64,000 nt of DNA from NCBI GenBank assembly GCA_024405735.1, contig JAKSOF010000006.1:1-64000 (forward strand). The letters run 5' to 3'. The translations under genes were made by a program, and so were the position numbers. This document shows, piece after piece, positions 7,280 to 21,348 of this stretch. Source of the stretch: Victivallaceae bacterium (lineage in GTDB: Bacteria > Verrucomicrobiota > Lentisphaeria > Victivallales > Victivallaceae). Each line of letters begins with the position of its first letter. Positions within the stretch are counted from its first letter, which is position 1. The notes beneath the pieces are model-generated. The model saw only the letters and a program-made list of their open reading frames with translations, had not been told where the DNA came from and did not search any database.

Positions 7280-7356
7280 TGGTGGGCGTAGTAGAACTCG
7301 AATCTACGACCTTCACGATGTCAACGTGACGCTCTAACCAACTGAGCTATACGCCC
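7280..7356 (-). tRNA. tRNA-Val (GAC anticodon)
   Basis: The 77-nt gene folds as a complete cloverleaf: acceptor GGGCGTA/TACGCCC, D stem GCTC/GAGC, anticodon stem TCACG/CGTGA around TTGACAT (anticodon GAC) and T stem GTAGA/TCTAC around TTCGAGT. The 3' CCA is encoded. It has its own promoter and terminator and is not part of a tRNA cluster. Confidence 0.97.
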
Positions 7357-8730: not shown

Positions 8731-10518
8731 TTATTTTTGCGGATGGGCGATATTCCACTCGGCGACCAACCGGGCGAAGCGGCTTTGAGGTGCGGTGAGA
8801 AGTTTCCGGCACGCGCCAGACTCCGCAATGTTTCCCCCTTCGAGCAAAAAAACATCGTCGGCGATGGAGGAAATGAAATTCAGATTGTGGTCGATCAGTA
8901 TCATGGTCATCGAGCCTTTCAGCGCGCGCAACGCGGGCAGTAAGTGCGATTGGATCATACTGCCGTCGATGCCGGCGGAGGGTTCGTCGATCAGCAAAAG
9001 TTCCGGTTTCATAAGGGACGCGCGGCTGAGTGCGAGAAGTTTTCTCTGCCCTCCGGAAAGATTGTCCGCGCCTAATGTAAGTTTGTGATCCGCAATGGTT
9101 TCCGGCTTGACGTCAAGCAGTTGCGGCAACCGGAATTTCTGACAGGCGGCGGTGATTTCCGCATCGGAGGCACCGGGGCATTGCAGATGGAAATTGTCGC
9201 GTATCGTCCCCTGAATAAAAAGAGGAAATTGCGAAATCATCACGCAACGGGCGCGGTAATCGCTCTCACGGATGGCGAAAACGTCTTTTCCCGCAACGCG
9301 GATGTTGCCGGATTGCGGCAGATAAAGACGGCAGAGCAGTTTGAAAATCGTCGATTTGCCGCCGCCGGAGGGGGAAACGAGCGCACCGCATTTCCCCGGC
9401 GCGAGAAAGAAAGTGATATGCTTCAAAACATTTTGTCCGGCGTCGTAGGCAAATGAAACATCCCGCAATTCGACGGAGGGGAGATTTCCGGCAGGGAAAG
9501 ACTTCTCCCCGTCGGGAAGCCGGGATTTCCGACGGAAAAGATCGACGATTTTCCGGATATAAGGCTCCTGATCCTTGATGTTGTTGTACATCTGCTGAAG
9601 TTTATTCAAGTGATTGAACATCAACGGGATCAGCAAAATCGCGGCGACGAGGTCGCGGACGACGGGACTTTGCGCGTCGTAGTGGCACAAAACCGAAACG
9701 ACGATCGCGAATTGAAAAAGGAGGATGAGAAGCGACATCGAATAGCGGCTCGCGATATGCAACAGCATCGCCTTGTCCATCCGGAGCGCCAATTGGTGCT
9801 GGATCTTGAACATCGCTTGCATCCGGCGTTTCAAAGCATCCATCAGATGCAGTTCGACGGGTGCGTGCAAGTCGTTGAGCGTTTCATCGTTGATCTCCTT
9901 GCAACTTTCGCGCACTTTGGTATAGGCGCGGGCGATGAGTTTGCCGAAATACCAGGTCAAAAACGGCTGAACCGCCATCCCGCCGACCAAAAGTAGCGTG
10001 AGCCAAAGCGGCAGATGGATGTTGTCAAGCGCGTCAAAGAGAAAGAGCAGTCCGACGGTCAATCCTCCGCCGTAATAAAGCGGAAACGCGATCAATTCCA
10101 GAATCGTGGCGGCGACGCCGCGCCCCGCATTGAGATTCAGCAAGTTTTCGCCGCCGGAATTCTCCTTGAAACAGTCGGGATCGAGCGACAGGATCGCTTC
10201 GTGCGTGAAACAAAAGGCGTCGCGGTCGAGGCGGTCTTTCAGCAAACGGTCTAAAACGTCGTTGACGACGGCAAAGAGAAACTGGACGACGCCGACGCCG
10301 AGAAAGAGCAATGCGGCACGGCGAAAGGTGTGCCATTCGCCGATCGTCCCGGCGAGATTGCCGGTCAATTGCGGCATCGCCATCGCGAGCGTTTCGGCGA
10401 AAAAGCCGAGAAGCAGCGTTACGGCGAGAAGTTTTTTCTGCCGCCGGAAATAAATTTTGGTCAGAAACCAGAGTTGTCTGAAAACCGCGAACTCATACCA
10501 AAAATGATTGGACTTCAT
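8731..10518 (-). CDS. ABC transporter, fused membrane and ATPase domains
   Basis: A half-size ABC exporter of 595 residues. The N-terminal half has the transmembrane helices of a type IV exporter (first around FRRQKKLLAVTLLLGFF, others around residues 80-120, 170-205 and 265-310). The C-terminal ATPase has Walker A SPSGGGKST, signature LSGGQRKLLALSRA, Walker B ELLLIDEPSAG and an H-loop in LIDHNL. There is no N-terminal C39 peptidase domain. The ATG at 10518 overlaps the GT9 gene by 26 bp; an earlier start would overlap it by 167 bp. As the last gene of the radical SAM cluster it may export the modified product; substrate unproven. Confidence 0.88.
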   Translation of the reverse strand: MKSNHFWYEFAVFRQLWFLTKIYFRRQKKLLAVTLLLGFFAETLAMAMPQLTGNLAGTIGEWHTFRRAALLFLGVGVVQFLFAVVNDVLDRLLKDRLDRDAFCFTHEAILSLDPDCFKENSGGENLLNLNAGRGVAATILELIAFPLYYGGGLTVGLLFLFDALDNIHLPLWLTLLLVGGMAVQPFLTWYFGKLIARAYTKVRESCKEINDETLNDLHAPVELHLMDALKRRMQAMFKIQHQLALRMDKAMLLHIASRYSMSLLILLFQFAIVVSVLCHYDAQSPVVRDLVAAILLIPLMFNHLNKLQQMYNNIKDQEPYIRKIVDLFRRKSRLPDGEKSFPAGNLPSVELRDVSFAYDAGQNVLKHITFFLAPGKCGALVSPSGGGKSTIFKLLCRLYLPQSGNIRVAGKDVFAIRESDYRARCVMISQFPLFIQGTIRDNFHLQCPGASDAEITAACQKFRLPQLLDVKPETIADHKLTLGADNLSGGQRKLLALSRASLMKPELLLIDEPSAGIDGSMIQSHLLPALRALKGSMTMILIDHNLNFISSIADDVFLLEGGNIAESGACRKLLTAPQSRFARLVAEWNIAHPQK

Positions 10519-12481
10519 ACCAAACCTTTTCGCAAGTAAAATCTTTCCGGCAATCCATCGCTTTGCATTGACGGCACGTTTCATAGGCGGCACAATCGGC
10601 GTGGATGACCTTGTGCCGTGCTCCGGCATAAGGCGCCCACGTGAGATGCGTGTCCTCAAAACAAATCGTCACACTGCGGCAGTCGCAGGCGCGGACAAGG
10701 TGCATCACGCCGGTATCGTTGCCGATGGCGAAGCCCCGGCGCTGACAGGAGAATGCAAGCGCGGCGATCGCAGTCAACGGCAAATTGACGGCAGTCCTGA
10801 ATCCGGCGGATTCCGCGGCAGAGCGATATAAATCTTTTTCCTGCGGACCAAGTACGAAAAGCGGTTGCTTTCCGGCATTTTTGAGTTTAACGGCAAGCTG
10901 AAGATAGTTTTCGACGCCCCAGTCTTTGAATTTACTGCTTGCGCCGGGGACGATCAATACCGTTTCGCGGGTGAAAAGGTCACGGACAAGGGCAAAATCG
11001 ACGCAAAGCGTGTTTTCGCCGAGCGAGATCGCATCGCAGTGATATTCCGGCTCGACGAGGCGGATCAGCGCCGCGCCCTGCTCGGTGACACTGGTGTAAC
11101 GGCGAAGTTTCACGTCATCCCACATCGTCAAAGGGAGATATTTGGTAAAGACTTTCTTGCAAACGGCTTCGGGGAAGTCGATCTGTTCGTAGCCGTAAGC
11201 CGCATCGTAGCGCATCTTGCGGAGCAATTCGAGAGACGCGGTATCATAGCGGTAATTGAAAACGGCGTCGTATCCGGCGTCGGGAAGCGCAGTATCTTTG
11301 CCTTTGAAGTCGATCACGCGGTCGGCAAAAGCGTACGCTTCAAAAAAAGGTTTCAGCGTTTCCGTTGCAAAAACGGTAATGTTGCAGGGAGCGTAGATTT
11401 TTGCCGCCGCTTCGATGGCATCGATGTTGACGATGGCGTCGCCGATGCGGTCCTGCATCAGAAAGGCGACATTTTTCATTTCCGGCATCGGCAGGGCAAG
11501 TTTTGCAAAAAGTTTGCGGACGACCGCTTCCACGGAAACGTGTCCGATGCAAGTTTTCTGGCAGGTGTTGCACTTTTCTTCACAAGCACAAGGAGGCATG
11601 ACAAGAGAATGGATCGGCTCCTCGTAGGGATACCAATTAAATGCCGAGCCGGTGGCGATAATGTGGATCGTCTTGCGGTGAAATGCCGATGCGAAGTGCA
11701 TGGGACCTGAATCGTTGCCGATGATGAGTTCCGCTTTATTGATAACGTACCCCAGTTGCGCAAAAGGCAGGGTGTCCAGCACAAGACAGCCGCAGTTTTG
11801 CAAATCGGGGACAAGCCGCCGGTCTTGCGGTCCGATGGCGAAAACGGCATCGATACCGGATTTTTTCAGCGTTTTGGCGACGGCGAGATATTTTGTGATT
11901 GGCCAGTATTTATACAAACCGCTGGTGCCGGGGAGGAAAAGAACGAATTTTTGCGGCAGTTTTTCTTTACATGGCTCCTGATGATACGTTTCCGGCGTGA
12001 GCACGGGATAGACAAAACTGAAACCGGGATCGACCAATCGTATCGGCTCCGCCATCTGCTCGCAGACGGTGCGGTATTTCTTGAGCGTGACGTTGTCCCA
12101 GTATTCCTGACTGACCCACTTGTCGAAATGCGTTTTGCACATTTCTTTGGTAATCATGCAACATTCCGAGCCGTAGCGGACTTTACACTTGAGTTTATCC
12201 TGCAACTCCAGATAAACGGGGCGGTACGTAAGATTGAAAATCACATCGAATTCCGTGTCGGGTGGTACAAAGCCGGAAAGATCGAGGTCGCCGTGGACGC
12301 CGCCTTTTAAAACGACTACTTCATCGACCCAGACGGAATTTTTCAGGAGTTCAGCAATCAAGGGGATCGCGAAAACGGTGATGCGGCAGGGCGCATAAAT
12401 TTTTTTGAGGTGTTCAATTTGATTGATACAGCAGATCACGTCGCCGAGCGGCGTGAGGGGAATGTAGGCGATGTTTTTCAT
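10493..12481 (-). CDS. Tandem GT9 (heptosyltransferase-like) glycosyltransferase
   Basis: A 662-residue protein made of two glycosyltransferase family 9 domains. Residues ~1-330 begin MKNIAYIPLTPLGDVI and contain GNDSGPMHFASA; residues ~335-662 begin MKNVAFLMQDRIGDAI and contain GNDTGVMHLVRA. Both halves share IYAPCxITVFA, so this is an internal duplication and fusion. GT9 enzymes use ADP-heptose or related nucleotide sugars and usually build LPS core; here the gene sits between an amidohydrolase and an ABC exporter in a cluster with radical SAM enzymes. A Cys-rich stretch (CACEEKCNTCQKTC) lies near the end of domain 1. Whether it glycosylates a lipid or the cluster peptide is open. Confidence 0.85.
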   Translation of the reverse strand: MKNIAYIPLTPLGDVICCINQIEHLKKIYAPCRITVFAIPLIAELLKNSVWVDEVVVLKGGVHGDLDLSGFVPPDTEFDVIFNLTYRPVYLELQDKLKCKVRYGSECCMITKEMCKTHFDKWVSQEYWDNVTLKKYRTVCEQMAEPIRLVDPGFSFVYPVLTPETYHQEPCKEKLPQKFVLFLPGTSGLYKYWPITKYLAVAKTLKKSGIDAVFAIGPQDRRLVPDLQNCGCLVLDTLPFAQLGYVINKAELIIGNDSGPMHFASAFHRKTIHIIATGSAFNWYPYEEPIHSLVMPPCACEEKCNTCQKTCIGHVSVEAVVRKLFAKLALPMPEMKNVAFLMQDRIGDAIVNIDAIEAAAKIYAPCNITVFATETLKPFFEAYAFADRVIDFKGKDTALPDAGYDAVFNYRYDTASLELLRKMRYDAAYGYEQIDFPEAVCKKVFTKYLPLTMWDDVKLRRYTSVTEQGAALIRLVEPEYHCDAISLGENTLCVDFALVRDLFTRETVLIVPGASSKFKDWGVENYLQLAVKLKNAGKQPLFVLGPQEKDLYRSAAESAGFRTAVNLPLTAIAALAFSCQRRGFAIGNDTGVMHLVRACDCRSVTICFEDTHLTWAPYAGARHKVIHADCAAYETCRQCKAMDCRKDFTCEKVWYEVQSFLV

Positions 12482-12500: not shown

Positions 12501-12622
12501 GAACCACGAATAAACGCGAATTTACGCGAATGTTTTGTATCAAGTTCCGACTTCGCACACGTTGACTCATGTTTCCCGTTTTCTTTTTTTATTTGTATTC
12601 ATTCGCGTCTATTCGCGGTTCT
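12501..12622. repeat. Inverted-repeat element with CGCGAAT heptamers
   Basis: GAACCACGAATAAACGCGAAT at the left (12501-12521, followed by another TTACGCGAAT) is the inverse of ATTCGCGTCTATTCGCGGTTC at the right (about 12601-12622), with 3 or fewer mismatches and a ~70-bp centre. Such CGAAT-heptamer repeats occur between genes in many bacterial genomes. The right arm supplies the last seven codons and stop of the upstream amidohydrolase gene, so the element is inserted inside the operon. Confidence 0.75.
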
Positions 12623-13360
12623 CAAAAACTCCATAAAATTGCGGTGCAACACCTTTTCCGAGGCGAAGCCTTTCAGCGTCCGCCGTAAATAATTTGTCAG
12701 CGAAACATTGAAAAGGCGTTGCTGAACGGGGATGTCGCTCCCGAAAAGGATCCTCTCCTCTCTTGCTCCGGCATCAATCCATTGCCGGACAACATCCGCA
12801 TGGCAGTAGGCGCAATCGACGAAAACGTTGTCGTAATGATTGACGGCATCGGGGACGGCGGCAGAAGGTTTGCCGTGGGCGAGATCGAATTTCACGGACG
12901 GAAATTTCCGGCAAAAGGGAAGATACGCCGTGATCGGATTTGCCTCGCCGTCATCGTCGCCTCCCGTATGGATTTGCACGGGGAATCGCCGCTCGCGGGC
13001 GATCGACAAAATACGGCGCAATAAATTCGGATGACGGAGCCACGGCGTTTCGCCGCCGTGAAGTTTGAAACCCTCATAAAAATCCGGCAATTTTTCAAGA
13101 TTCCGGTCGCGTTTCAGATATTCGTCGGTGATCCAAAAAAAGGCGTGCGCGCGGTTTCCGGCAAGCCGGATCACTTCCTCCGCTTCGCGGTGCATCACCT
13201 TGCCGTCAAAATCCCAAATGGCATTGGTCGAGGAAAAGATAAACTCCGTTACATTCGCCCGTTTCAGGATGCCGAAAATCCGGCAGGGCGAATAATAGAC
13301 GGGCTTTTCGAATCCCTTGCGGGGAAAGTAACCCACGTGAACGTGCGCGTCGCAGATCAT
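12599..13360 (-). CDS. Amidohydrolase_2-like TIM-barrel hydrolase
   Basis: A 253-residue metal-dependent hydrolase-like protein. The N-terminal metal motif HxH is in CDAHVHVGYF (His5, His7); later ligands are the His in VQIHTGGDD, the His in DLAHGKPS and the Asp in ILFGSDIPVQQ. This pattern fits the Amidohydro_2/TatD-like group, which includes decarboxylases and hydrolases; the substrate cannot be told. Its ATG overlaps the radical SAM gene stop by 4 bp. The C-terminal residues RTANRRE come from an inserted intergenic repeat, so the original terminus was probably slightly different. Confidence 0.8.
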   Translation of the reverse strand: MICDAHVHVGYFPRKGFEKPVYYSPCRIFGILKRANVTEFIFSSTNAIWDFDGKVMHREAEEVIRLAGNRAHAFFWITDEYLKRDRNLEKLPDFYEGFKLHGGETPWLRHPNLLRRILSIARERRFPVQIHTGGDDDGEANPITAYLPFCRKFPSVKFDLAHGKPSAAVPDAVNHYDNVFVDCAYCHADVVRQWIDAGAREERILFGSDIPVQQRLFNVSLTNYLRRTLKGFASEKVLHRNFMEFLRTANRRE

Positions 13361-14820
13361 TTTTTAGCGTGTTCCGCGCGGTACTCGCGTTCCAGTTTCG
13401 CGTGCAATTCATCGACGATCTCGTGGTTGAGGTGCGCGACCTTGCAGAAATGCGGTGCGACCTTGAGCATGTCGCCCGTCTCATTGAAATTGCGGACAAG
13501 ACACATCGAGCAGTAGTTGCGGTCTTCACAATGAATGCACTGCGGAATATCCTTGCCGCGCAGTCCGCGCAAGTATTTGATCTGCGGAGAGTTTTCCCAC
13601 ACGTCGCGGAGACTTTGCTTATAGCAGTTGCCGAGCGGGAAATCCTGAAATCCCGAACAGGCGTAATAATTGCCGTCGGCATTGAGACACATCTTGTCGG
13701 TCCCGGCGCCGCAAAGGTGATCTTCGGCGCGTTCTTCCGGGGGACGCAGTTCATCTTTGACGTCGGGGTTGAAATACTCTTTCATCATCGGCACGTCACG
13801 GAGAATAATGTCTTCCAAGAGACACTTCGTCTGCGGAAGCGTCAGCCGGTTGACGAGATTGCTGTCGTCGTGATCGGCTTTTGCCATCATGATGAAATCG
13901 GTCTGGGCAAACATATGCATCGATTCCGCATACTTCATCACGTCAAGGTATCCCTCGAAATTTTTCCGCATCGTAGGGCAACTGATGGTGACGGGTACGT
14001 TGGCTTTGTAGAGTTTTTCAATAGCGGTTTTGGTTTCCAGCCAAGAGCCTTTGCGTTGCGTGATGCTGTCGTGAATGGCGGGATCCATACTGTAAAGGGA
14101 AACTTGCACGGCGCAATCCATTTCTTTGAGGAGCGCGATTTTGGCATCATCGCAGAGCGTCAGATTGGAAAGCACCGCCACGGTGCAGTCTTTGCTCCGG
14201 ATATAGCGGACGATCTTGTCGAAATCGGGGTGAAGCATACACTCGCCGCCGGAAAGTCCGACATGCAAACCGCCCATCTCGCGGAATTCGTCGATCACTT
14301 CGCAAATTTTTTCATAGGGGAGAAAAAGCGGATTGTATTCCGGTACATAGCAATGGACGCAACGCTCGGTGCACGCTTGGGTGATGTCAAGTTGAATGTC
14401 AAAAAGCGTCGGGTTTTCCTCAAAATACTTTTTGAGGACGGTCTGCGGCATTTTTTCCGCTTCCTCTTGGGTGACGGGAGTGGTGTCGCGTTCCGTTTTG
14501 GGATTCGGCATATCGTAACGGAAAGAGACTTCCTGCGCGTCCAACTCGGCGGGGATATTTCCGGCGAGAACGGCGCCCGCCGCGATCATGGGGGCGATGA
14601 ATTCCTCAAAGTCCGCCGCGATCTCTGCGGGATCGGCGTCCGTATAAACGCCGCAAATGTTTTTGATGATTTCCGCTTTTTCGCGCGGTTCACGGGTGAT
14701 GAAGCGCATAAAAACTTCCGCACCGTCAAACATCTCATCATAGGAATTCAGTTTATGAAAGACGTAGGTGAAATCTCCATAGTTGCGGACGAATGTATTT
14801 TTAGAAAGACGGATCAGCAT
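13357..14820 (-). CDS. Radical SAM/SPASM protein with PqqD-like N-terminus (A)
   Basis: A 487-residue radical SAM enzyme of the peptide-maturase type. Residues ~1-90 look like a PqqD-type peptide-binding (RRE) domain. The AdoMet iron-sulfur motif is CTERCVHC (Cys150, 154, 157), followed by the GGE motif LSGGECMLHP. The SPASM region has about nine cysteines, including HLCGAGTDKMC, YACSGF, CIHCEDRNYCSMC and a final PHFC after NFNETGD, enough for two auxiliary clusters. The ATG at 14820 is inside the end of gene B (7-bp overlap), so the two are translationally coupled. A likely role is thioether or other side-chain crosslinking of the 46-aa peptide at 17426; substrate is inferred from location. 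Confidence 0.85.
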   Translation of the reverse strand: MLIRLSKNTFVRNYGDFTYVFHKLNSYDEMFDGAEVFMRFITREPREKAEIIKNICGVYTDADPAEIAADFEEFIAPMIAAGAVLAGNIPAELDAQEVSFRYDMPNPKTERDTTPVTQEEAEKMPQTVLKKYFEENPTLFDIQLDITQACTERCVHCYVPEYNPLFLPYEKICEVIDEFREMGGLHVGLSGGECMLHPDFDKIVRYIRSKDCTVAVLSNLTLCDDAKIALLKEMDCAVQVSLYSMDPAIHDSITQRKGSWLETKTAIEKLYKANVPVTISCPTMRKNFEGYLDVMKYAESMHMFAQTDFIMMAKADHDDSNLVNRLTLPQTKCLLEDIILRDVPMMKEYFNPDVKDELRPPEERAEDHLCGAGTDKMCLNADGNYYACSGFQDFPLGNCYKQSLRDVWENSPQIKYLRGLRGKDIPQCIHCEDRNYCSMCLVRNFNETGDMLKVAPHFCKVAHLNHEIVDELHAKLEREYRAEHAKK

Positions 14821-16205
14821 GATGATTTTCCCTTGCAAAGTTGATATTTGATTTTCGGTTCCATACAGTATACAGGTCGGTGTTTGTATAAATCACCTGT
14901 TTCATTGAAATTGGCGGCGGGACACGCCATGCAAAAACACCTGTTGGTACATTTGAAACACTCTGGGAAATCCCGCTGTTTAAGATCGCGGAGTTTTTCA
15001 GCAAGCTCACTGTGCCATGCTTCCTGCATCGTGTCGTGATAGCAATTACCGAGGATAAGTCCGCGACCGGCTGTACATGGATAATAATTTCCAGATGCAT
15101 CTAGGCGTAATTTTATTGTGCAGATTTCGCACATTGGATCATCAAGCTGTTTATCAAATTTTCCTGGGCCCCATGGATTGCTGCTTTGGCAATTAGAGAG
15201 ATAGTCGCGCATTTGTGCTGCATTCAAGCCGTGATCCAAATTGCCGCAGTCGTGATTGACTTTTGCCAGCAATGTGGCATTGCTACTGAATTTATAATTC
15301 TGATCCGCACAAAATTCTTCAACCATGTGCCATGAATCAAAATTCTTTTTCAGTACCGGAGTATTGATCTTCATAGGAACATTGTATTTTCGCATTAATT
15401 CAATCCCGCGCACAGTCTCCTTAAAAGAGCCGGGACGGCGGGTAATAGCGTCATGGATTTCCGGGATCATACTATAAACGCTGGTCTGCAGATATTTGAT
15501 GCGTACGTCCGCAAGCGTTTTTACAATTTCTTCATTCAGTAGCGTTAGATTGGATAAAACCGTAATCATTAGATCGCATTTCCGCGCATAGCGCAGGATC
15601 TCGCAAAATTGCGGATGACACATCGGTTCACCGCCGGAAAATTCCACTTCCAATCCGCCCATGGCACGGTATTCGTCAATGACCTTGCAGATGACATCAA
15701 AAGATAATGTGTTGGTTCCATATTCCGGAACGTAGCAATGAACGCAACGTTCTGTACACGTATCGGTTAAATCAATATGTAGAGAAGTAATTTGTTTACG
15801 CGCAATCAGAAAATCATTGATGAGTGAAAAATCATCGTTTTCTTCTTTTTTATCTGCTTTAGCGGGGGATGATCGTGTCATTTCCACTTCGGCTTCCGCT
15901 TCGGTATAATAGCGGAACTCCGGTTCTTGGGCGGTCAACTCTTCAGGTGTGTCGCCAGTCAACACAGCTCCCTGCAGTGATTGGATAAAATCGGCAAAAT
16001 CCGGCGCAATCTCTTCCTGAGTACAATCATAGAATTTGGCAATTTTGGCAACGATAGCTTTATCTGTCTGCGGTTTACAAGAAATGAAACGTAAGAATGG
16101 CTCTGCATCCTGCAAAAAGAATTTTGCATCATTACGTTGATTGACGATCTCCGACATATTGTCAAAGTGCCGGACAAAGGTGTGATTGGATAGTTGTAAA
16201 AACAT
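14814..16205 (-). CDS. Radical SAM/SPASM protein with PqqD-like N-terminus (B)
   Basis: A 463-residue paralogue of the neighbouring gene, with the AdoMet cluster cysteines at the same positions (150, 154, 157 in CTERCVHCYVPEY) and GGE in FSGGEPMCHP. It has the same PqqD-like N-terminal ~85 residues and a SPASM end with CEICTIK, YPCTAGR, CFKCTNRCFCMACPA, NFNETGD and VYC. Base composition is lower in GC than gene A, so the pair may have separate histories rather than being a recent duplication. It starts 3 bp after the AT-rich membrane protein gene ends. Two different maturases suggest either two chemistries or two substrates. Confidence 0.85.
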   Translation of the reverse strand: MFLQLSNHTFVRHFDNMSEIVNQRNDAKFFLQDAEPFLRFISCKPQTDKAIVAKIAKFYDCTQEEIAPDFADFIQSLQGAVLTGDTPEELTAQEPEFRYYTEAEAEVEMTRSSPAKADKKEENDDFSLINDFLIARKQITSLHIDLTDTCTERCVHCYVPEYGTNTLSFDVICKVIDEYRAMGGLEVEFSGGEPMCHPQFCEILRYARKCDLMITVLSNLTLLNEEIVKTLADVRIKYLQTSVYSMIPEIHDAITRRPGSFKETVRGIELMRKYNVPMKINTPVLKKNFDSWHMVEEFCADQNYKFSSNATLLAKVNHDCGNLDHGLNAAQMRDYLSNCQSSNPWGPGKFDKQLDDPMCEICTIKLRLDASGNYYPCTAGRGLILGNCYHDTMQEAWHSELAEKLRDLKQRDFPECFKCTNRCFCMACPAANFNETGDLYKHRPVYCMEPKIKYQLCKGKSSC

Positions 16206-16208
16206 AGT

Positions 16209-16994
16209 TCACCTTTTCCGTGGCTTGAATTTATGATGTGAAAAAAAGTAAGTAACAACACACAACAATATTATAATTACAAGAACCGCAATTGTTCTTT
16301 GTAAAGTGCTATCTGTACTAAAATAAATTCGGAATTCGTTTTCACAACAAAAAATTATATACGGAATGAAAATAAAAAATAAACCAATAAATACAATAAC
16401 GATTCCTATCCAACAATTTACCGTTGATGGTGATGTTGAATCAGCCTTAAAAAAACAGAACCAATGCTTTTTTACAAGCGATTTATCTTTGTGATATGTT
16501 TTGCCGTCTATTGCAATATCATATTCTTTTGCGACATAGTTTTCTTGTAAATATTTAAATTGCAATTCAACCGGTAGAATATTTTCCAAAATATCAATTT
16601 TTCTCTCGTAAATTTCTGTCCAATATTTAGACCCTTTAGACATTGCCAACCAAAGCGTCCCTGATATCATCAGTATACTTCCAAGGAGCAAACTTGTTAA
16701 ACTATCTTTCAGCGTAAATTGTGAAATCGGAGTACTCAGTATAGAATAAAAATAAAAAACTCCACTTCCGGTCAACAGCAAAATAATAAATGCGGAAAGA
16801 AAAATAGAGCGTTGCCACAGTGTGGTAATTTCCAGTTCACGACTATTATATAGTTGTTCCCAGATTTTCCAAGCGACAGCATTGGAATCAATGTGTATTT
16901 CCTTGCCGTCTGTTAAAATATTTACCGAGGAAGATGCATTTTCTGTTTTTGTCTGGACAACAATGCTCTGGTTATTTCCGCAGATATTACCCAT
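16209..16994 (-). CDS. AT-rich four-helix membrane protein
   Basis: Function unknown. The 261-residue product is strikingly AT-rich against its GC-rich neighbours. It has a soluble N-terminus of ~60 residues, hydrophobic segments at about 63-86 (SIFLSAFIILLLTGSG), 98-117, 192-215 and 232-252, and a soluble central stretch with YWTEIYERKIDILENILP. The layout of two membrane helices followed by an amphipathic Trp/Tyr-rich helix ending in a Leu-Pro resembles RipA-type membrane proteins, but this is only a tentative likeness. It is tightly packed (3-bp gaps on both sides) in the radical SAM operon. A self-immunity role would fit the context but is speculation. Confidence 0.7.
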   Translation of the reverse strand: MGNICGNNQSIVVQTKTENASSSVNILTDGKEIHIDSNAVAWKIWEQLYNSRELEITTLWQRSIFLSAFIILLLTGSGVFYFYSILSTPISQFTLKDSLTSLLLGSILMISGTLWLAMSKGSKYWTEIYERKIDILENILPVELQFKYLQENYVAKEYDIAIDGKTYHKDKSLVKKHWFCFFKADSTSPSTVNCWIGIVIVFIGLFFIFIPYIIFCCENEFRIYFSTDSTLQRTIAVLVIIILLCVVTYFFSHHKFKPRKR

Positions 16995-16997
16995 TTT

Positions 16998-17312
16998 TCA
17001 CCACTGATATTTTTTAATTTCAGCAAACCATATCGGATTGAAAACAATCATATTGCCCTTTCGCGATACAACATCTCCGTATTGTTGAGGCGCAGTACTG
17101 GTCATAGAGCGAAGCGTAGTCCTTGGTGAGGCTGCCGGGGCGGGAAGATTGCTCAATCCGACAAGGAATTGCTGTTCCGTCATAGTTTGATTGGGGGCAT
17201 TCAGCAACATAGCAATCGCTTGATGGATAGTAGAGGCAGGATTTGCAGCCCGACTTGCTGTTAATTCCGGGATGTCATATCGTGCAACCGTTTGTTTTTT
17301 TGTATGTGCCAT
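16998..17312 (-). CDS. Small basic protein, possible winged helix
   Basis: Function unknown. The 104-residue product has a Lys/Thr-rich start (MAHTKKQTVARYDIPEL), a helical region STIHQAIAMLLNAPN, a TMTEQQFLVGL segment and an aromatic end (NMIVFNPIWFAEIKKYQW). The order helix, helix-turn-helix-like, then beta strands resembles a small winged-helix domain, which is inference. It has no cysteine, so it is unlikely to be a second Cys-crosslinked substrate, but its leader-like N-terminus keeps that possibility open for another modification. The ATG at 17312 follows AGAGAGAA; an in-frame start upstream at 17396 lies across a hairpin. Confidence 0.6.
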   Translation of the reverse strand: MAHTKKQTVARYDIPELTASRAANPASTIHQAIAMLLNAPNQTMTEQQFLVGLSNLPAPAASPRTTLRSMTSTAPQQYGDVVSRKGNMIVFNPIWFAEIKKYQW

Positions 17313-17347: not shown

Positions 17348-17382
17348 CCCCTCTTTCGCCCGTTTTGTGGGAGGAAGAGGGG
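17348..17382 (-). other. Hairpin between peptide gene and operon genes
   Basis: CCCCTCTT (17348-17355) and AAGAGGGG (17375-17382) form an 8-bp stem around a 19-nt loop. There is no T-run after it on the minus strand, so it is not a standard terminator. It sits between the 46-codon gene and the rest of the operon, where a stability or partial-termination hairpin would raise peptide output over enzyme output. Confidence 0.5.
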
Positions 17383-17425: not shown

Positions 17426-17566
17426 TTTAGTCGTGTCGTCCCACTTCACACCTGGAATTATAAGTACACACATAATTATTAGTGTTACTTAGCTGCGACG
17501 GGCAACCGGCGACGTAGGACTTCTTCGCGGAAGATTTCGCGACCATCTGGGGTTTCTTGTAAGCCA
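17426..17566 (-). CDS. 46-aa Cys-containing peptide, candidate RiPP precursor
   Basis: A short gene with an AAAGGAG ribosome site 7 nt before its ATG. The product starts MAYKKPQMVAKSSAKKSYV, then AGCPSQLSNTNNYVC and TYNSRCEVGRHD. The first ~20 residues are Lys/Ala/Ser-rich like a leader; cysteines are at 22, 34 and 40, amid Asn, Tyr, Ser and Thr, typical of crosslinked cores. It lies upstream of, and on the same strand as, two PqqD-domain radical SAM/SPASM enzymes and an ABC exporter. The ribosome site, frame and context all support a real gene; that it is the substrate is inference. A GG-type cleavage site is not obvious, the nearest being AG before Cys22. Confidence 0.75.
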
Positions 17567-17637
17567 TAATAAGGCTCCTTTCCGAGGGATTTTTCCTCAT
17601 TTGACCGCACCGCTCATCGGCACGGTCATGGTTTATT

Positions 17638-17673: not shown

Positions 17674-17994
17674 CTACTCTTTGATCAAACGGATATTGCG
17701 CCCCGCCATGCCCGAACGGGTCCACTTGTCCTTTGCGCCGCATTCGGGACAGATGACGACGATGCCGTTTGTCATCGCATGCATATTGAACATCAAATCA
17801 TTCAAGGCGTCCATTTCGCGCAAACCGCTCTTTTGCGTCTTTTCGCCTTCGCGGCAGTTCGCGCAAAAAAAGGTCCGGCACTTGTTACAGCGGTACACGG
17901 CGCAATCGTCCGTTTTTGACCCGCAATTTTTACAATCTCCAGCCGTCAGCAATGCCGTGGCGGAAAAAACGGCAAAAAACATCAGCTTTTTCAT
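17674..17994 (-). CDS. Cys-rich exported protein, zinc-ribbon-like
   Basis: Function unknown. The 106-residue product has a signal peptide (MKKLMFFAVFSATALLTAG) and then CKNC, a spaced Cys, CNKC, CANC and, near the end, CPEC: four CxxC knuckles plus one or two extra cysteines, suggesting two zinc sites or disulfides. Zinc ribbons are rare outside the cytoplasm, so periplasmic location is odd. The ATG at 17994 follows AGAAAGGAAT. It is the first gene after the strong promoter at 18263 and probably shares the transcript of the radical SAM cluster. It might be a metal or redox partner or have no link to the cluster. Confidence 0.7.
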   Translation of the reverse strand: MKKLMFFAVFSATALLTAGDCKNCGSKTDDCAVYRCNKCRTFFCANCREGEKTQKSGLREMDALNDLMFNMHAMTNGIVVICPECGAKDKWTRSGMAGRNIRLIKE

Positions 17995-18035
17995 TTTTTT
18001 TATTCCTTTCTTCCCGAAAAAAGACAACAAAAAAG

Positions 18036-18131
18036 GCATACCCCGTTGCGCATTGCATCTGAGGTACGCCAATACACCCAACACCAAACGCGAACGAGGT
18101 ATGCCGGCACTGCATCGTGCATGCATACCTT
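18036..18131. repeat. Nested inverted repeats (GGTATGC/GCATACC)
   Basis: GGCATACC, GGTACGCC, GGTATGCC and GCATACCT occur in turn at about 18039, 18062, 18099 and 18123, so two hairpins can form, each enclosing a GCAxTGCAT core. A related inverted copy (CACCTCGGATGCAGTGCG) lies at about 18331-18349. In RNA from the minus-strand promoter these would make a structured leader. Confidence 0.5.
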
Positions 18132-18291: not shown

Positions 18292-18544
18292 GCCCTTGTC
18301 GTCCGCAAAAAAGGAAAATGTATTGACGCACCTCGGATGCAGTGCGCCTTTCGCCCCTTCTGCTTAACCACACATATAATAATCGGATTTCAAAGCGTCA
18401 TCTTGCAGTGATCGGGGCAAAAAAGCGTTTTTTCTTTTAAGAGCAAATTTTTCCGGAGAAATTAAAATAAAGCGGCTTGTTATTTCAAAAAAAGATGTTA
18501 TCTTAAAATAAGAGTGTTTGTAGTTTTGAAGTTGCGACGGTAAA

Positions 18545-19696
18545 ATGAAACGGGGATTACAAGGGAGTTTCGAAACCATCAGTACTGTGGGAGAAACGGT
18601 GCGGGCGTTCGTGCCGGCTCCGTTGCCGCCTTGTCCCGCGTTGGCGATGGATGGCGCGCTGCAGAATAAAATGGAGCGCGCGGTTTTTGCGCTCGGCCGC
18701 TTGGACGGGATGACGAATTTATTGCCTGATCCCGCGATCTTCCTTTATATGTTCATCCGCAAGGAAGCCGTATTGTCTTCGATGATCGAGGGAACGCAGT
18801 CCTCTCTCTCCGATCTCCTGCTTTTTGAGGCGGACGGAGCCCCCGGAGTTCCGGTTTGTGATGTCCAGGCGGTCAGCAGTTATGTGCACGCCATTGAATA
18901 TGGCATGGAGCGTATAGCCGGAGGCTTTCCGCTTTCACTGCGTCTCTTAAAGGAAATCCACGCCGTTTTGCTTGAGCACGGCAGAGGGAGCGGAAAAAAT
19001 CCGGGGGAATTCCGCCGCAGTCAGAATTGGATCGGCGGCACGCGTCCGGGAAATGCCGCTTTTGTCCCGCCGCCGCCGGAAAAGATGAATGAGGCGATCT
19101 GTCAACTGGAGCTTTTTCTTCATCAGTCGGAAATGCCGGTATTGATCAAAGCGGCTCTCGGGCATTTGCAATTTGAAACCATCCATCCTTTTCTGGACGG
19201 CAACGGTCGTATCGGGCGACTGATGATTTCATTGCTTTTGTGCAACGCCGGCATATTGCATCAGCCGTTGCTTTATTTGAGTTATTACTTTAAAAAACAC
19301 CGTGCCGCGTATTACGAATTACTGAATTCCACCAGGGAAAACGGCGATTGGGAGCGTTGGCTTGATTTCTTTTTTGATGCGGTCGCGGAAACGGCGACGC
19401 AAAGTTGCACGATCATTCAGCAGTTGAATCGGCAAATGGAAATGGACCGCGCCGCCATTGCCCGGATCGGAAAAGCCCGGACGACGGTGCTCGCCGTCCA
19501 TCAGGCGATGTTGCGGCATCCGATCGCCGACATCAGGAAGATCCGGGATTTGACGGGATTTTCCATCGCGACCGTTGGCAGTGCCGTGCGGCGGTTGTGT
19601 GAATTGTCGATATTGGAGGAAATGACGAAAAATAAACGCAATCGCCTTTTCTGTTACCGCAAATATCTGAAAACCTTAACCCCCGGGGAGTTTTGA
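18545..19696 (+). CDS. Fic-domain protein (class II)
   Basis: Fic proteins transfer AMP (or related groups) to hydroxyl side chains of target proteins. The 383-residue product has the full active motif HPFLDGNGRIGR (214-225) with catalytic His214, and an N-terminal inhibitory helix SSMIEG (78-83, SxxxEG), which defines class II, where the glutamate blocks ATP binding. The N-terminus (Fic_N-like) and a C-terminal winged-helix (about 310-375, with IADIRKIRDLTGFSIATVGSAVRRL) complete the usual layout. It ends 3 bp before the ECF sigma gene, so the three downstream signalling genes are probably cotranscribed. No antitoxin-like partner is next to it. Confidence 0.9.
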   Translation: MKRGLQGSFETISTVGETVRAFVPAPLPPCPALAMDGALQNKMERAVFALGRLDGMTNLLPDPAIFLYMFIRKEAVLSSMIEGTQSSLSDLLLFEADGAPGVPVCDVQAVSSYVHAIEYGMERIAGGFPLSLRLLKEIHAVLLEHGRGSGKNPGEFRRSQNWIGGTRPGNAAFVPPPPEKMNEAICQLELFLHQSEMPVLIKAALGHLQFETIHPFLDGNGRIGRLMISLLLCNAGILHQPLLYLSYYFKKHRAAYYELLNSTRENGDWERWLDFFFDAVAETATQSCTIIQQLNRQMEMDRAAIARIGKARTTVLAVHQAMLRHPIADIRKIRDLTGFSIATVGSAVRRLCELSILEEMTKNKRNRLFCYRKYLKTLTPGEF

Positions 19697-19699
19697 TGT

Positions 19700-20302
19700 A
19701 TGGGCGTTTACCCTGAAACCGACCGCACGATGCTGGAGCGCATTATTTCCGGCAACGACATCGCGTGGCAGGATTTTTATGATACGTATGCCGGCGTCGT
19801 CGAAGCGATCTGCCGCGCTTCGGGTGTGCCGGCAAGCGCCGTCGACGACATCGTTCAGGAAGCGATGCGCCGCTTTGCCGACCGTTCGTCGCACTTTATT
19901 TATATGCCCGAGCGCGCGAAGTTCCGCACCTATTTCAACCGGATCGTTCACGGCGCGATCGCCGATTTTTTCCGCAATGAAGCCAAGGGGATCGTCCCCT
20001 GCGGCGAAATTCCCGACGTCGCCGACGATTCCCTCGCTGACGCCGAGCTGGAGATCTGGCGCCGCGCCGTGCTCGACGACGCGCTGGGGGAGTTGGCAAA
20101 ACGTGTCAGCGGCAAAAATTATCTCGCCTTTACGATGAGCGTACTGGAAGATCATCCGATTTCCGAAACGGCGGAATTTCTCGGCATTTCCACCGCGCAA
20201 GTCCATCTCGCCCGCAGCCGTTGCGCGGCGCATCTGCACAAGATCATTGCCGGTTGCAATGAAGCCGATCCCGAACTTCATCTGGTTTATCCCGGGAAAT
20301 AG
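19700..20302 (+). CDS. ECF-type RNA polymerase sigma factor
   Basis: A 200-residue sigma-70 family protein with region 2 (about 20-90, including VDDIVQEAMRRFADR and FRTYFNRIVHGAIADFFR) and region 4 (about 135-185, with helix-turn-helix AEFLGISTAQVHLARSRC). Its region 2 is atypical, as often seen in PVC ECF groups. The ATG follows the fic stop by 3 bp and a Ser/Thr kinase gene starts 2 bp after it. In several ECF groups the partner is a Ser/Thr kinase rather than an anti-sigma factor; no anti-sigma gene is present here, so control by phosphorylation is a reasonable inference. Confidence 0.85.
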   Translation: MGVYPETDRTMLERIISGNDIAWQDFYDTYAGVVEAICRASGVPASAVDDIVQEAMRRFADRSSHFIYMPERAKFRTYFNRIVHGAIADFFRNEAKGIVPCGEIPDVADDSLADAELEIWRRAVLDDALGELAKRVSGKNYLAFTMSVLEDHPISETAEFLGISTAQVHLARSRCAAHLHKIIAGCNEADPELHLVYPGK

Positions 20303-20304
20303 CG

Positions 20305-21348
20305 ATGTTTCAAGTCGGCGACATCCTCGATCAGTACCGTTTGACGGCGGAGATCGGTATCGGTTCCTACGGCTGTGTTTTCTCCGCTGAAAACATGGTG
20401 ACGCATCAATGTTTCGCGCTGAAAATCGTGCCGCTTGTCGGCAATGCCGGACGCCGGGAAATGCACGCGCTGGAGCTTTACCGGGATCTCGATCACCCGA
20501 ATTTACTGAAAATCCATCACGTCGGGACGACGGCAGATTTCCTCTACTACACGATGGATCTCGCCGACGGGAAGCTCGCGGAGCAGAAACTTGCCGCTCC
20601 CGCTTTGCTTGAAGCGGCGGCAAAAATCGCCGATGCGTTGTCGGTGCTTCACGGCGCGGGATTGCTTCACCGCGACATCAAGCCCGACAATCTGCTCTGG
20701 CGGCGCGGTGAACCGCTTCTCGGCGATCTCGGACTGCTCACGACCGAATCACAGGCGACTTTTACCGGGACCGCCGGATTTCTTTCGCCCCGCATTTTGA
20801 ATGCGGCACTGCCGCCGGACGAAACGACCGATCTCTATGCTTTCGCCAAAAGTTTTTACTGCCTTTTGTCCGGCAATCCGCCGCGCCGCTATCCCCGTTA
20901 TCAGGGGGAAATGTCGCCGGAAGCTTCGCGTTTGCTCCGGATGGCTCTTTTTGTCTGCGACGGTGAAAAAGTTTTGTCCACCGCAAGCGAAGTCCGCGAT
21001 TTTCTGCTTCAGGGCAGGGCGAAGCGCATCGTTCCCCGCCGGATCCTCCTGGGGCGTGCTTGGAAAACCGCAGTCGCTCTTCTGTTTGCTGTCGGCGTGG
21101 CAACGGGGGCGTATTTCGGGATATACCGCCCGTTGAAAGCGCGTTCTTTGCGATTGCAGGAGGAGCAGAAACGCCTCGCGGCGCAGGCGGAATTCGACCG
21201 CTGGATGGCGCGGAAAAAAGCCGCCCGGGAGTATGCGCTGAAAAAAATTCCGCTCCGTCGCCACTCCGACGGCTCCACCTATACCAGCATGGATGACGTG
21301 ATCGAACGCAGTCGCCTTGAGCGCGAGTATCTTGAAAAAAATCCGTAA
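20305..21348 (+). CDS. Transmembrane Ser/Thr protein kinase
   Basis: A 347-residue Hanks-type kinase with a glycine loop GIGSYG (18-23), ATP-binding Lys40, helix-C Glu, HRDIKPDN (122-129) and the metal-binding DLG (141-143, the DFG equivalent), so it should be active. One membrane helix (about 252-274) separates the cytoplasmic kinase from a ~70-residue charged, probably coiled-coil tail (LRLQEEQKRLAAQAEF) that lacks a known sensor domain. It starts 2 bp after the ECF sigma gene, and the pair is a likely sensor-regulator unit. Confidence 0.9.
   Translation: MFQVGDILDQYRLTAEIGIGSYGCVFSAENMVTHQCFALKIVPLVGNAGRREMHALELYRDLDHPNLLKIHHVGTTADFLYYTMDLADGKLAEQKLAAPALLEAAAKIADALSVLHGAGLLHRDIKPDNLLWRRGEPLLGDLGLLTTESQATFTGTAGFLSPRILNAALPPDETTDLYAFAKSFYCLLSGNPPRRYPRYQGEMSPEASRLLRMALFVCDGEKVLSTASEVRDFLLQGRAKRIVPRRILLGRAWKTAVALLFAVGVATGAYFGIYRPLKARSLRLQEEQKRLAAQAEFDRWMARKKAAREYALKKIPLRRHSDGSTYTSMDDVIERSRLEREYLEKNP

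Follow-up and report, generated by a model that had tools for sequence, protein, structure and literature searches.

A candidate radical-SAM-matured RiPP precursor family with a conserved leader and a variable, cysteine-containing core in Victivallaceae and related bacteria

A 46-codon gene in the window (the whole 64,000-nucleotide stretch of Victivallaceae bacterium contig JAKSOF010000006.1 analysed here) very probably encodes the precursor of a radical-SAM-matured RiPP, judging from sequence comparisons and predicted models. Its most likely fate is conversion into a finished natural product by two neighbouring radical-SAM enzymes, with a core that would probably carry thioethers through its cysteines. 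The kind of precursor is known; the family, the make-up of its cassette and the conservation of its leader DNA are new, and the family is undescribed as far as searched. No literature describing it was found, in a search whose thin coverage of subscription papers leaves absence unproven. None of the 19 peptides of the family convincingly matched a known precursor family in NCBIfam or Pfam; FdhE_central (E 0.009), GBP_PSP (0.48) and lasso_cyano (0.13) gave one match each, all judged to be chance.

The peptide gene and its relatives

The gene lies on the minus strand, from an ATG at 17567 to a stop codon ending at 17427, and is present as a single copy in the window's genome. A preliminary description of this DNA had placed it at 17426–17566, which is off by one, and had given no strand. 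The encoded peptide (MAYKKPQMVAKSSAKKSYVAGCPSQLSNTNNYVCTYNSRCEVGRHD, 46 aa) has its cysteines at positions 22, 34 and 40, as described, and the good ribosome site claimed earlier corresponds to a strong site, GGAAAGGAGCC, 5' of the ATG. The gene is indeed upstream of the enzyme genes, but not directly so, as a 104-aa ORF and a 261-aa 8xMP membrane protein separate it from the first radical-SAM gene in this genome. The features of the locus are as follows:

17568..17590, minus strand: 5' UTR with ribosome-binding site, ccctcggaaaggagcc; conserved, one copy in the window's genome
17427..17567, minus strand: precursor peptide gene, 46 codons plus stop (ORF, homologues, codon comparison)
17499..17567, minus strand: leader-coding part, codons 1–23; conserved, DNA nearly frozen
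17430..17498, minus strand: core-coding part with Cys34 and Cys40; variable
17348..17382, minus strand: hairpin 3' of the peptide gene (folding), with a putative attenuator- or terminator-like role
16998..17312, minus strand: 104-aa ORF, found here and in L026 only
16209..16994, minus strand: 8xMP (PF24838) membrane protein, 261 aa, with a relative in L071; possibly an immunity protein
14814..16205, minus strand: rSAM1, radical SAM/SPASM maturase; N-terminal region resembles that of rSAM2
13357..14820, minus strand: rSAM2, radical SAM/SPASM maturase with an N-terminal RRE-like domain (Pfam, profile, predicted model)
12599..13360, minus strand: amidohydrolase_2 with ACMSD-like fold; metal-site residues invariant
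10493..12481, minus strand: glycosyltransferase with two GT9 (heptosyltransferase) stretches (Pfam)
8731..10659, minus strand: ABC exporter (Pfam), true start uncertain

A search of 60 relatives with the peptide returned clear matches (E<=1e-5) in six genomes, all of the same genus, with homologues at E 4e-12 to 3e-6; matches in 15 further genomes (E 0.04–1) were treated as chance. A profile of eight peptides, applied to 197 genomes from this class, further identified G175, which belongs to another genus and has three copies, and more weakly G139 (0.0023), which was kept because a maturase adjoins its peptide. The E 0.04–1 matches of the single-peptide search and weak rows of the profile searches, such as G175:C62 (no maturase was found in L072), were excluded from the counts. 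Among 387 genomes of the phylum, 15 matched rSAM2 at E<=1e-40. Eighteen loci were examined, L021 being left out as a duplicate of L026 with an identical peptide (G026 belongs to the window's genus). The peptide was present in 16 of them, giving 19 distinct sequences; none was seen at L093, where the contig begins at rSAM1, or at L098, where the radical-SAM protein is ~35% identical. Every relative peptide gene adjoins one or two radical-SAM/SPASM genes.

Peptide and maturase also occur together across genomes. The 19-peptide profile matched 13 of the same 387 genomes at E<=0.001, all within the 15 with rSAM2 (Fisher p 1.8e-22), a comparison that is partly circular, the profile (A3) including peptides found by looking beside rSAM2. 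Less circular is the search of the 60 relatives, where the six peptide-positive genomes (E<=1e-5) were exactly the six with rSAM2 (p 2e-8). Within the 97 genomes of the family of G287, the peptide was matched in G287 alone.

Codon comparisons agree with a translated gene. Leader changes between near relatives are mostly synonymous (two synonymous and no nonsynonymous changes relative to L024), and pN/pS over the leader is 0.37 across 153 pairs; L097_0, whose leader is two residues longer, was omitted from these counts. Together with the same-genus homologues and the 19 distinct relatives, this bias indicates that the 46-codon ORF proposed in the preliminary description is real rather than a product of chance. 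Two findings had been named that would speak against it, the lack of a conserved frame among relatives and substitutions like those of non-coding DNA. Neither was seen; frame, stop codon and cysteine positions are kept in divergent relatives.

The peptide divides into two halves of different character. It had been suggested to compare the first 20 residues, expected to stay alike, with a varying Cys-containing half; in the 19 peptides, similarity extends over the first 23 residues, with a mean column entropy of 0.92 bits for residues 1–23 against 2.34 bits for residues 24–46 (2.56 bits without C34 and C40). Seven columns are invariant in all 19 (M1, Y3, P6, A10, A20, C22 and C34), Cys22-Pro23 is almost invariant, and C40 is present in 18, the exception being G139, whose peptide stops before it. 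The loops between the cysteines vary in both sequence and length, and a single genome can contain as many as three copies, each with its own core. Peptides from single-maturase loci are shorter (33–42 aa versus 44–53 aa). The leader/core reading is thus upheld and can be refined to a border at about residue 20–23, with varying loops and retained cysteines. A short encoded peptide with a conserved leader, a variable core and adjacent maturase genes corresponds to what is expected of a RiPP precursor.

All 19 peptide genes are followed, within 130 nt of the stop codon, by a stable hairpin (z -2.5 to -8.5), the sequence of which differs in each case; for L022_0 the stretch extends into the next peptide gene. 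Such a hairpin could act as an attenuator that yields more precursor than enzyme. On the other side of the gene, just upstream on the minus strand (17674–18000), lies a probable secreted Cys-pair protein, in which inspection by eye shows a signal-like start followed by CxxC motifs; it has no family match above cut-off. Positions 18046–18077 and 18321–18350 form an imperfect repeat in opposite orientation, also read by eye and absent from the repeat search at seed 9.

The maturases and the cassette

Both rSAM1 and rSAM2 match PF04055 and PF13186 above the Pfam cut-offs. All 30 sequences compared retain the cysteines of the CxxxCxxC SAM-cluster motif (C150, C154 and C157) and those of the SPASM domain (C370, C388, C428, C431, C437 and C440). 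The predicted model of rSAM2 (mean pLDDT 88.5) was most similar in Foldseek to CteB (5wgg, E 1.2e-14), the best matches being CteB, TigE, SkfB and SuiB. Most rows of a second structural comparison span only rSAM2 residues 122–462; SuiB aligns from residue 2 of the model (Z 22.2) and SkfB from residue 8 (Z 21.7). These N-terminal alignments, along with a profile match of residues 3–85 to the lasso RRE protein TbiB1 (E 2.9e-4), support a putative N-terminal RRE on rSAM2; the Pfam PqqD match was below its cut-off. The curated sactipeptide and ranthipeptide maturase models AlbA, StsB, SkfB and PapB scored rSAM2 at 60–74 bits, against cut-offs of 300–850. As all NCBIfam matches of rSAM2 lie far below the curated cut-offs shown, the enzymes are unclassified and their chemistry cannot be read off. 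PADLOC matches of both radical-SAM proteins to viperin reflect the generic radical-SAM core.

The peptide might alternatively remain unmodified, or form disulfides or bind metal through its cysteines, for example as a bacteriocin, with the radical-SAM neighbours acting on something else. The conserved cysteines and the ABC exporter of some loci would suit this, but the linkage of peptide and maturase in 16 of 18 loci, their strict co-occurrence and the RRE-like N-terminal domain of the maturase speak against it, and we consider it improbable.

Searching the loci by tblastn with the window's proteins showed that the cassette varies in its further genes. The second radical-SAM gene, rSAM1, is found in 13 of 18 loci and the amidohydrolase in 14, two of the four loci without it (L070 and L081) being at contig ends. 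The GT9 gene occurs in eight loci, a close ABC exporter in four, and the 8xMP protein and the 104-aa ORF in two each. Structurally, the modelled amidohydrolase (pLDDT 93.5) resembles ACMSD-type decarboxylases and related hydrolases, and all 14 sequences compared share D4, H6, H8, K99, H131, H162 and D209. The cassette showed no dedicated leader peptidase, and the ABC exporter (8731..10659) gave no Pfam match to a C39 peptidase. One RiPP precedent for an amidohydrolase was found: PurAH/BotAH of bottromycin removes a follower peptide (PMC10885120).

Radical-SAM enzymes also build peptide-derived redox cofactors such as PQQ and mycofactocin, and a Cys-containing precursor could in principle serve such a pathway. 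Among the enzymes similar to the two radical-SAM proteins are PqqE and the mycofactocin maturase, and an accessory hydrolase is usually present. In precursors of PQQ and mycofactocin, however, the excised residues should be invariant; here the core is hypervariable, up to three different cores share one genome, and the peptide has a patchy distribution, in 13 of 387 genomes. We give a cofactor very little probability.

For the preferred reading, a radical-SAM-matured RiPP, the fold and the conservation suggest that residues 1 to ~21 would be the leader, bound by the RRE-like N-terminal domains of rSAM1 and rSAM2. The two SPASM enzymes would then cross-link core residues, most likely through Cys22, Cys34 and Cys40 as thioethers, and the amidohydrolase, glycosyltransferase and ABC protein may provide further processing, perhaps glycosylation, and export. 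Changing targets of the product, for instance if it is a bacteriocin, may explain the variation of the loops.

The ends of the cores were compared with a tree of 31 maturases. Cores end in CE(V/I/L) in the window, L026 and L022, in CELN in L023 and L027, and in CxCG-type tails in L024, L025, L070, L071, L094 and L095, with one ECMKGPL and one HCMVV core in L092; L096, L081, L097, L073 and L098 are single-maturase loci. Each of these four groups (L092 counted with the CxCG type) clusters in rSAM2, and the first three also cluster in rSAM1. This fits a C-terminal core motif that follows the maturase clade, either because enzymes are matched to cores or through common descent alone.

Further observations concern the surroundings and history of the cassette. 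Between the window's genome (G000) and G032 (L022), rSAM2 has a pN of 0.05, lower than the 0.108 of five ribosomal proteins from the same genomes, a hint that the cassette may have moved horizontally. A Fic protein, an ECF sigma factor and a Ser/Thr kinase form a divergent set beside the cassette (18545–21348). Relatives of the kinase (28–33% identity) lie near three other peptide cassettes (L023 6865–8427, L025 1076–2662 and L027 10743–13395), once with the sigma factor too; such kinases are common, so that their linkage to the cassette is unproven. Two peptide cassettes have beside them a small protein in which CxxCGSxxxGxGCPY...H motifs recur (L094 6713–6970 and L097 6956–7210).

Conservation of the leader DNA

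From the 5' UTR to codon 23, a block of ~95 nt in the window is 95–96% identical to G032, G026 and G009, and 87% identical to G175 of another genus. DNA identity ends at the leader/core border; the core and most of the flanking DNA do not align, with L024 also showing weaker similarity further upstream. In the close set, leader pS is 0–0.13, compared with 0.58–0.76 for rSAM2 in the same pairs, where rSAM2 is near saturation. Genome pairs are not independent, and binomial values are descriptive. Setting aside comparisons between G175 paralogues, each of the seven remaining pairs had at most one 22-codon window, out of 1,715–1,771 in four cassette genes, with a value as low as that of the leader; in the two G175 paralogue pairs 58 of 812 windows were as low, and these pairs therefore show nothing.

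Ribosomal genes (5–6 genes; windows with at least 20 of 22 identical residues) served as a control. No window was as low as the leader for G000–G032 (0/186), G026–G032 (0/183), G026–G009 (0/237) or G032–G175 (0/58), and few were for G000–G009 (5/238) and G009–G175 (1/56), whereas the leader was unexceptional for G000–G026 (66/493), G032–G009 (14/238), G000–G175 (9/61) and G026–G175 (9/69). For G024, leader and ribosomal genes have diverged to a similar degree, and in the distant members L023, L027, L092 and L095 the leader is not frozen. As this control lowers the surprise for some pairs, high expression may account for part of the freezing, the remainder being attributable to nucleotide-level constraint or to exchange of leader DNA.

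Several simpler causes were discarded. Lys codons alternate between AAG and AAA at fixed positions, at odds with a single-residue codon bias. The first 22 codons of the four enzyme genes have a pS of 0.34–1.17, at odds with a generic gene-start effect. The folding of the block is not unusual (z -2.4 to +1.0), and the 5' UTR motif is not a genome-wide element (one genome copy, against 1 and 2 for a reversed control pattern). Conservation of ~95 nt at the nucleotide level, synonymous sites included, might suggest a regulatory RNA or DNA element made up of the 5' UTR and first codons, the ORF being incidental. This has hardly any probability given the frame, stop and cysteines kept in divergent relatives, the synonymous bias of leader changes, the ordinary folding and the lack of an Rfam match in the block at the gathering threshold, at which the window's only match was a tRNA (7283–7356).

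Tentatively, and on balance we think it unlikely, the 5' UTR and leader DNA could form a recombination module in which the frozen leader serves as a homology arm and precursor genes acquire new cores, exchanged or replaced at the leader/core border. If true, core exchange would re-target a fixed enzyme set between strains.

Comparison with known systems

This candidate radical-SAM RiPP family spans several families within a single phylum (Lentisphaeria and others), and its 19 natural cores, preceded by leaders that closely resemble one another, are a ready substrate library for probing the tolerance of the two maturases. It is most comparable to two-enzyme sactipeptide and ranthipeptide systems (ruminococcin C, thuricin CD; SCIFF/CteB, SkfB), which likewise have a short Cys-bearing precursor and SPASM radical-SAM maturases with an RRE, two per cluster. 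To our knowledge, those systems lack ACMSD-like amidohydrolase and GT9 genes, and no precursor sequence similarity was detected. Cys-to-carbon thioether bridges like those of sactipeptides and ranthipeptides would be in line with the conserved cysteines and the CteB/SkfB-like predicted fold. Two maturases per cluster are described for ruminococcin C (RumC; PMC8188230) and thuricin CD (PMC12093266).

The streptide maturase SuiB shares the RRE, radical SAM and SPASM layout, aligned over rSAM2 model residues 2–461, at only 14–15% identity. Streptide contains a Lys-Trp cross-link, whereas the conserved core residues here are cysteines. The SSH-motif RaS-RiPP peptide NF050043, of streptococci, weakly resembles the leader of one member over residues 3–14; two of 19 members matched it at E<=1 (best 0.025), and the 11.1 bits of the member shown, against a cut-off of 45, place it outside that family.

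As an evolutionary analogy only, conotoxin precursors likewise combine a conserved precursor region and cysteines with hypervariable inter-Cys loops and site-specific codon conservation (PMC3823881). Conotoxins are unrelated eukaryotic venom peptides, and no enzymatic cross-linking is implied. Near-frozen leader DNA among near relatives, combined with a hypervariable core, is more familiar from venom genes; its occurrence in a bacterial precursor makes the diversification of such peptides testable.
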